Positions 58,938-61,329 of a stretch of DNA of 64,000 bases are shown here, piece after piece (within the stretch, counting starts at the first letter, position 1; each line of letters starts with the position of its first letter). This DNA is from an uncultured Pelagibacteraceae bacterium (GTDB lineage Bacteria; Pseudomonadota; Alphaproteobacteria; Pelagibacterales; Pelagibacteraceae). Location: NCBI GenBank assembly GCA_902567785.1, contig CACFOR010000001.1, forward strand, positions 114,924 through 178,923, in the 5' to 3' direction. The position numbers were made by a program, and so were the translations under genes. The notes under the pieces were generated by a model. That model did no database searches, was not told the origin of the DNA, and worked only from the letters and a program-made list of their open reading frames with translations.

Positions 58938-58955
58938 ATCACAATTAAATACGCA

Positions 58956-59023
58956 CACAATTTTTGGTCGTGAGACCTCCGGTCCTTAAGTGGAAAGAAT
59001 TGTGGAGGAATAACCGGGAAACT
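58956..59023 (+). promoter_or_regulatory. Structured 5' leader of rpsB (stem, inner GNRA-type hairpin, putative pseudoknot beside the Shine-Dalgarno)
   Basis: P1 CACAATTTTT(58956-58965)/AAGAATTGTG(58995-59004); P2 GGTC-GTGA-GACC (58966-58977); pseudoknot TCCGGT(58978-58983)/ACCGGG(59013-59018); SD GGAGGA 59004-59009. Confidence 0.75.
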
Positions 59024-59890
59024 ATGAAATTACCAAGTGTTACAATAAAAAATTTATTGGAAGCGGGAGTACATCTAGGGCACAAAACTTTTAGATGGAA
59101 TCCAAAAATGAATAAATTCATTTTTGGTTCAAAAAACTCAATACATATTATTGATCTTGTTCAAACACTAGAAATGATAAATGCGGCTTTAGTTGAAATC
59201 CATAAGTGCGTATCTTCAGGAGGAAGAATACTTTTTGTCTCAACAAAAAAACAAGCTTCTGCAAGTGTAGCTAACTTAGCTAACGAAACTTCACAATTTT
59301 ATGTTAATCATAGATGGCTAGGCGGCATGTTAACAAATTGGAAAACTATATCCAATTCTATAAAAAGATATAAGAAACTTTCAGCAGAATTAAAAAAAGA
59401 GAACACAGGTTTTACAAAAAAAGAAATATTAAAAATGGGCATGCAAAGAGATAAATTAGAAAGATCACTAGGTGGAATAGCTGATATGACTAAAATTCCT
59501 GATATGATTTTTATAATAGATACAAATATTGAGGAATTGGCAGTAAAGGAAGCTATAAAATTAAATATTCCTATAGTTGCTATTGTTGATACCAATTCTG
59601 ATCCAGGAGGAATTAATTATCCAATTCCAGGAAATGATGATGCCAGAAGAGCAATTAGTTTATATTGTGATTTAGTAAAACAGACCATATTAGATGCACA
59701 AAAAAATATATTTAAAGGAAAAGAAGATAAAGTTACCAAAGAAGAATTTGTTAAAGAAAAAAAGAATATAGAGCAAAAATCAATTCTAAAGGAAGAGACT
59801 AAAAAAAAACAAAAAGAGAAAAGTAAAAAAAAAACCAAGTCTATTTTTTCAAAAATTAAGGCACTTACTTCTAGTAAATCAAAAAAATAG
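59024..59890 (+). CDS. rpsB: 30S ribosomal protein S2 (start revised from 58964 to the ATG at 59024)
   Basis: MKLPSVTIKNLLEAGVHLGHKTFRWNPKMNKFIFG..., GGRILFVSTKKQA, NHRWLGGMLTNWKT; Lys-rich C-terminal tail. Confidence 0.95.
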   Translation: MKLPSVTIKNLLEAGVHLGHKTFRWNPKMNKFIFGSKNSIHIIDLVQTLEMINAALVEIHKCVSSGGRILFVSTKKQASASVANLANETSQFYVNHRWLGGMLTNWKTISNSIKRYKKLSAELKKENTGFTKKEILKMGMQRDKLERSLGGIADMTKIPDMIFIIDTNIEELAVKEAIKLNIPIVAIVDTNSDPGGINYPIPGNDDARRAISLYCDLVKQTILDAQKNIFKGKEDKVTKEEFVKEKKNIEQKSILKEETKKKQKEKSKKKTKSIFSKIKALTSSKSKK

Positions 59891-59895
59891 TTTTT

Positions 59896-60765
59896 ATGCC
59901 TAACAATAATACACTCGAAAAAGTAAAAAAACTAAGGGAACTTACTGGCGTAGGTTTCAAAGATTGTAAAATTGCTATAGATGAAAACAAAGGTGATATA
60001 GAAAAATCAATAGATTTTTTAAGAAAAAAAGGAATTGCTAAAGCAAATAAAAAAATGGAAAGAGTGGCAGCAGATGGATTAATTGCAATTTCTCAAAAAA
60101 ATAATAATTTTTCAATAATAGAGATAAATAGTGAAACAGATTTTGTTGCAAAAAACAAAGAGTTTCTTAAATTTGTAGAAGAAGTATCTAACATAGCTCT
60201 ATCAAGTTCCGGAAAAATGGAAAATATTTTAAAATCAAATATGAAAAATAAAAAAAATGTAAAAGATAATTTGGTTTCTTTAATATCAAAAATAGGGGAA
60301 AAAATTACATTAAGAAGAACCGATTTTATTGGATCTGAAAAGTATATAAATTTTAGCTATATACATTCAGCTGTTCAAGAAAATCTTGGTAAGATTGGAG
60401 TTTTAATAAGCTTAGAAACTAGCAAAAAAAAGGATGAGATATTGGAATTTGGCAAACAATTATCCATGCATGTTGCTGCATCTTCTCCATTATCAATTGA
60501 CAAGGCTGGATTAGATGAAAATTTTCTAAAAAAAGAAAAAGAAATAATAAAAGAAGAATTAAAAAATAGTGGAAAAGATGATAAAATTATTAATAAAATA
60601 GCAGATGGAAAATTAAATAAATTCATATCTGATAATACTTTATTAAATCAAGAGTGGATTATGGAACCTAAGAAGAAAGTCAAGGATATTTTAAAAGAAG
60701 TATCTGGAAAAGATAAAATAGAAATAAAAAAATTTATAAGATTTAAAGTTGGTGAAGGAATTTAA
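59896..60765 (+). CDS. tsf: Elongation factor Ts
   Basis: KKLRELTGVGFKDCKIAI, EINSETDFVAKN, SMHVAASSPLSI. Confidence 0.96.
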   Translation: MPNNNTLEKVKKLRELTGVGFKDCKIAIDENKGDIEKSIDFLRKKGIAKANKKMERVAADGLIAISQKNNNFSIIEINSETDFVAKNKEFLKFVEEVSNIALSSSGKMENILKSNMKNKKNVKDNLVSLISKIGEKITLRRTDFIGSEKYINFSYIHSAVQENLGKIGVLISLETSKKKDEILEFGKQLSMHVAASSPLSIDKAGLDENFLKKEKEIIKEELKNSGKDDKIINKIADGKLNKFISDNTLLNQEWIMEPKKKVKDILKEVSGKDKIEIKKFIRFKVGEGI

Positions 60766-60768
60766 AAT

Positions 60769-61329
60769 ATGTCTTCAGAAGAAATAATAAATAATTGCAA
60801 TTCTAAAATGAAAAAAGCATTTGAGGTATTTATTAATGATTTGGGTGCCTTAAGAACTGGGCGCGCAAATTCTGCTATGTTAGATATAATTAAAGTTGAA
60901 GTATATGGACAAAAAATGTCAGTGAATCAGCTAGCTACTATATCTACTCCTGAGCCACGACTTATTACCGTTCAAGTTTGGGATCAGAATAATGTTGGGC
61001 TAATTGATTCAGCTATTAAGAAATCAAATTTGGGTATTAATCCACAAATTGATGGTCAGTTAATGAGAATTCCAATACCAAGTCTCACCGAAGAAAGAAG
61101 AGTTGAGTTAAAAAAAATCATGGGAGGTTTAGCTGAAAAATCAAAAGTTTCTATAAGAAATATAAGAAGAGAAGCAAATGATAAATTAAAAAAAGATTTT
61201 AAAGACAAAAAGATTAGTGAAGACGAAAGCAAAAATGCAGAAAAAAAAATTCAAAATATTACCGATAAGCAAATTTCAGAAGTAGAAAAAAAATTATCAG
61301 AAAAAGAAAAAGAAATAATGACGGTATGA
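60769..61329 (+). CDS. frr: Ribosome recycling factor
   Basis: LGALRTGRANSAMLDIIKVEVYGQKMSVNQLATISTPEPRLITVQVWD. Confidence 0.97.
   Translation: MSSEEIINNCNSKMKKAFEVFINDLGALRTGRANSAMLDIIKVEVYGQKMSVNQLATISTPEPRLITVQVWDQNNVGLIDSAIKKSNLGINPQIDGQLMRIPIPSLTEERRVELKKIMGGLAEKSKVSIRNIRREANDKLKKDFKDKKISEDESKNAEKKIQNITDKQISEVEKKLSEKEKEIMTV

Follow-up and report, generated by a model that had tools for sequence, protein, structure and literature searches.

The window, i.e., the whole stretch of 64,000 nucleotides analysed, originates from an uncultured bacterium of the family Pelagibacteraceae and exhibits the gene order dnaE - rpsB - tsf - frr - uppS - cdsA - dxr, where the genes were named by sequence and order and the label SAR11 was taken from the published context of 'Candidatus Pelagibacter ubique'. 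On the + strand, rpsB (59024..59890) encodes ribosomal protein S2 (288 aa; PF00318 match, 4.5e-88), its limits being drawn from the list of open reading frames and from a test of the reading frame. It is followed on the same strand by tsf (59896..60765), recognised as the gene of EF-Ts from its open reading frame sequence; the rpsB-tsf order is that of Escherichia coli and tsf, being downstream, is expected to be carried on the rpsB mRNA. The gap between dnaE and rpsB is occupied by a structured leader element spanning positions 58952-59026, also on the + strand.

This element is organised around a long helix, P1, capped by two short hairpins, P2 and P3, and completed by a pseudoknot. The outer part of P1 pairs CGC (58952-58954) with GAG (59005-59007), the middle position being a G-A mismatch in this species, and is separated from the inner part by a bulged A (58955), which is an invariant column in 42 SAR11 leaders. 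The inner helix, which covaries on both strands, pairs CACAATTTTT (58956-58965) with AAGAATTGTG (58995-59004). An earlier note on this DNA had recognised this 10-bp stem and overlooked both the bulged A and the three outer pairs. P2 corresponds to the hairpin GGUC-GUGA-GACC (58966-58977), where the pairs proposed earlier covary but the GNRA-type loop is not kept in relatives. Junction J2-3 provides the 5' strand of the pseudoknot, CCGGU (58979-58983), and is followed by P3 (58984-58993), a very short CC/GG helix with its loop, in which 58984-58985 pair with 58992-58993. The 3' strand of the pseudoknot, ACCGG (59013-59017), ends 6 nt ahead of the start codon. All the strings given in the earlier note were found where it had placed them, including TCCGGT (58978-58983), ACCGGG (59013-59018) and the ATG (59024-59026); of the six pseudoknot pairs they would allow, the five pairs CCGGU/ACCGG are conserved, whereas relatives do not preserve the sixth, U58978-G59018. 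Set against shuffled sequences, the window copy taken singly has an unremarkable folding energy (z -0.27), and the sequence of this copy alone would thus not prove the structure; it is the comparative evidence that does.

Regions upstream of rpsB were collected at 104 loci within this taxonomic order, the window's own copy being L001, and 42 distinct SAR11 leaders were aligned by sequence only, i.e., without any use of the structure. Changes on both sides of a pair were found in 13 of the 21 pairs of the proposed structure, including 8 of the 10 considered in P1 and all four in P2, which bears out the compensatory changes the stems had been predicted to show across relatives. Double-change cells amounted to 114, as against 36.9 +/- 5.6 in shuffles (none of 500 reaching the observed value), the covariation score of 0.313 fell to 0.10 or less once the partner strand was displaced, and 87% of the cells paired on the proposed structure as opposed to 30-45% upon sliding the partner strand by 1-3 columns. 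When the structure was not supplied, RNAalifold recovered P1 with its bulged A and all three outer pairs. In outer P1, most members of the window's family read CGC/GUG and most of the sister family AUC/GAU, which constitutes a compensatory change; in the alignment, pair 3-66 is AU in 8 leaders versus CG in 32, and pair 4-65 is UA in 7 and UG in 2 versus GU in 23. Support for P2 is underestimated since the alignment places this hairpin wrongly in one sister family (f2). As for P3, only 61% of the cells are paired in this sequence-only alignment, and in relatives it is longer and made of different pairs, e.g., CTGC/GCAG or CCAC/GUGG.

The pseudoknot hardly varies within SAR11, and the case for its pairing consequently rests on other clades. 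An automatic search for the pseudoknot partner that requires complementarity is biased; the test was therefore based on a sequence-only alignment of 90 other Alphaproteobacteria. There, 97.1% of the cells pair and 14 double-change cells were counted, compared with a mean of 1.2 and a maximum of 5 in 1000 shuffles. Among the variants, CTGGT/ACCAG is carried by five genomes and CCAGT/ACTGG by four, and at the corresponding place E. coli K-12 exhibits GGGGT/ACCCC. As such, the compensatory changes looked for in the pseudoknot do exist, outside SAR11.

With this anatomy, the window element is an rpsB leader RNA, i.e., a further member of the known family corresponding to Rfam RF01815 and to the rpsB motif, which Meyer et al. 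(2009; PMC2704228) originally reported between dnaE and rpsB of 'Candidatus Pelagibacter ubique' and found in the majority of Alpha- and Gammaproteobacteria. The motif of P. ubique comprises a P2 of three pairs, a P3 of two pairs and a J2-3 pseudoknot (PMC2704228). Its defining features are all found in the window, namely (i) a three-way junction that caps P1 and carries P2 and P3, (ii) the J2-3 pseudoknot, and (iii) a location directly ahead of rpsB. The dnaE-rpsB gene pair, the very short P3 and the five-pair pseudoknot between J2-3 and the 3' extension of P1 are likewise shared with P. ubique, from which the window copy departs at the sequence level only, with a G-A mismatch in outer P1 and an Rfam score below cut-off, like other SAR11 copies tested. 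The core reading of the earlier note, a structured rpsB leader, thus agrees with the P. ubique motif in gene context and in anatomy, and its remark that such leaders had already been proposed, Pelagibacter included, agrees with the literature (PMC2704228). The Rfam search it had suggested gave a full-length match to RF01815 (58952-59032; model positions 1-132 of 132; 32.8 bits, E 5.6e-5), the sole one in the window's own genome, though short of the curated (gathering) cut-off of 40 bits. Among 148 genomes of relatives, 61 match at E <= 1 and none reaches 40 bits, so that this threshold carries no information for SAR11. The motif was discovered in SAR11, yet in the SAR11 genomes tested the rpsB leader escapes the default Rfam model.

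A dedicated model, R1, was built from the 42 SAR11 leaders and scores 78 bits on the window copy. It gives a strong match directly 5' of rpsB in every one of the 106 SAR11 genomes where rpsB is assembled, 42 of these matches being those used to build it, and no other strong match. The matches total 107 as one genome (G075) has two rpsB loci, on contigs C5 and C18, each with its leader; this genome is listed with 6% contamination and probably represents a mixed assembly. The only extra R1 match below E 0.005, a would-be second copy in genome G098 (24 bits), lies antisense in a CTP synthase-like gene, has broken pairs and was taken as a chance match.

The distance between the pseudoknot and the start codon sets SAR11 leaders apart. 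In the 104 loci, this linker measures 6-12 nt (median 8; 6 nt in the window), and a Shine-Dalgarno match of at least four bases occurs in 5 linkers versus 7.2 expected by shuffling, i.e., at chance level, all five reading AAAGGA. In other Alphaproteobacteria, where the core and pseudoknot are shared and P2 and P3 are often longer, the linker reaches 5-25 nt (median 17) and contains a Shine-Dalgarno match in 75 of 86 cases against 35.8 expected, once four rows whose start or pseudoknot was evidently misassigned had been dropped. In E. coli, 24 nt including a separate Shine-Dalgarno, AGAGGU, separate pseudoknot and ATG, where the window has 6 nt and no such sequence. The stretch GGAGGA (59004-59009), earlier taken for the Shine-Dalgarno of rpsB, is doubtful in that role: it corresponds to the conserved 3' flank of P1, in which it is partly paired, and ends 14 nt ahead of the ATG. 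Most SAR11 relatives read GGUGGA instead, and a similar GGnGG stretch exists both in E. coli and in Alphaproteobacteria outside SAR11, which possess a separate Shine-Dalgarno further downstream; on these grounds it was not accepted as such. Such a linker is in keeping with a paucity of Shine-Dalgarno signals across the lineage. When genes were called crudely, 15 of 56 starts in the window had a match (14.7 expected), which hints at a mostly Shine-Dalgarno-independent initiation in this lineage; E. coli, treated in the same crude way, gave 20 of 38 (12.4 expected). Of the tsf starts, a small sample with lenient start picking, 0 of 9 have a match in SAR11 (0.3 expected), compared with 27 of 33 elsewhere in the Alphaproteobacteria (18.7 expected). 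The SAR11-wide short linker devoid of Shine-Dalgarno is possibly new; Meyer et al. (2009; PMC2704228) do not discuss it in their main text, nor does the word "Shine" appear there, and as the comparison is limited to that text the feature is not claimed as unreported.

As regards function, the closest reference is the E. coli rpsB-tsf leader, also known as t44 (RF00127), which shares with the window element P1 with its bulged A, the GUGGAGGCAUAAC block, a pseudoknot (GGGGU/ACCCC) and the position ahead of rpsB-tsf. In E. coli, excess S2 is reported to repress rpsB-tsf translation via the 5' UTR leader, with a need for S1 (PMC10931766), and autogenous control by S2 is cited in both PMC10931766 and PMC2704228. 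By analogy, the SAR11 leader very probably lets S2 switch off its own production. We are confident that it acts in cis as a regulatory 5' UTR, whose compact fold would be stabilised by S2 and block the rpsB start. The fold itself, in which P1 and its bulged A, two short hairpins (P2 and P3) and the pseudoknot between J2-3 and the 3' strand come together, is established by covariation; surplus S2, probably with S1, would bind and stabilise it as in E. coli. Since the 3' strand of the pseudoknot ends 6-12 nt from the start codon in SAR11, the fold, once bound, would directly block access of the 30S subunit to the rpsB start, and the output of S2 would drop, as would that of EF-Ts through the operon. 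The preferred mechanism is that an S2-stabilised pseudoknot would directly occlude the start region; here structure and position are observed, and binding and repression would follow the E. coli precedent.

The E. coli precedent does not extend to every point. The review PMC10931766 places the ribosome binding site of E. coli beyond the limits of the S2 operator, which does not hold in SAR11 given the 6-12 nt and the lack of a separate Shine-Dalgarno. As this arrangement is reported for E. coli and is no part of a definition, the difference weakens the notion that the SAR11 leader works exactly as in E. coli and leaves membership in the motif unaffected; the E. coli arrangement also means that the ancestral mechanism may have been something other than direct occlusion. 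A broader scenario can tentatively be put forward, with a likelihood falling somewhat short of even, in which the ancestral leader would have lost its linker and Shine-Dalgarno in the SAR11 order, the pseudoknot itself would have become the ribosome landing site and the S2 switch would operate by direct occlusion, in a lineage that makes little use of Shine-Dalgarno sequences, unlike in E. coli, whose landing site is external to the operator. Leaders with and without a Shine-Dalgarno in the linker offer a natural comparison for how S2 represses its own mRNA.

Among other explanations, the fold could be a general translation element, shaping the start region or recruiting the ribosome via S1 without binding S2 in SAR11; SAR11 rpsB and tsf starts without Shine-Dalgarno might indeed benefit from a structured start, but the strict tie to rpsB in 106 genomes and the repression by S2 through the homologous E. 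coli leader make this improbable. Lower still stands the idea of a trans-acting small RNA comparable to the E. coli "T44/tff" and located ahead of rpsB by chance: RF00127 matches the window leader with 25.2 bits (below its cut-off of 44) and E. coli annotation places tff at this very place, yet the pseudoknot extends to 6-12 nt from the rpsB start with no U-run after the element, which thus reads as part of the mRNA, and both PMC10931766 and Meyer et al. (PMC2704228) treat it as a cis leader. That the stretch would be the S2 N-terminus, i.e., 20 aa from a TTG at 58964 conserved as protein, can be practically dismissed, for although this frame is open in the window genome, the phase is spread over all three frames with indels that are not multiples of three, stops are frequent, and the compensatory changes in this region track RNA pairs.

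The start of S2 can be corrected. The distance from the pseudoknot strand to the ATG falls in the three frames in 41, 36 and 27 of the 104 loci, and an in-frame stop lies inside the element in 72 of them; an extension translated as protein would keep its phase to the ATG, and phases so scattered indicate that the region is not coding, in agreement with the earlier remark that these 20 residues lack S2 character. On comparative grounds, the true rpsB start is the ATG at 59024 and the TTG at 58964 is spurious. In three loci of a single genus (L011, L012 and L031; g6), no ATG is found from the pseudoknot to the S2 sequence and rpsB apparently starts with TTG.

Two further observations concern the surroundings. 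Upstream of the leader, matches to a TATAAT -10 box occur in 71 of 101 loci against 70 expected, i.e., at chance level. Downstream, pyrH (UMP kinase), located between tsf and frr in E. coli, is absent at the tsf-frr junction of the window (60765-60769), and nothing above the family cut-off was found in 7 further genomes of the window's family, 5 of which are near-complete single contigs; the matches there, of 20-49 bits, apparently correspond to other proteins of the amino acid kinase fold. The sister family has pyrH close to rpsB-tsf (308-314 bits). Cmk-like matches were obtained in 7 of 7 genomes checked, and such a protein could act as a stand-in UMP kinase where pyrH is missing.
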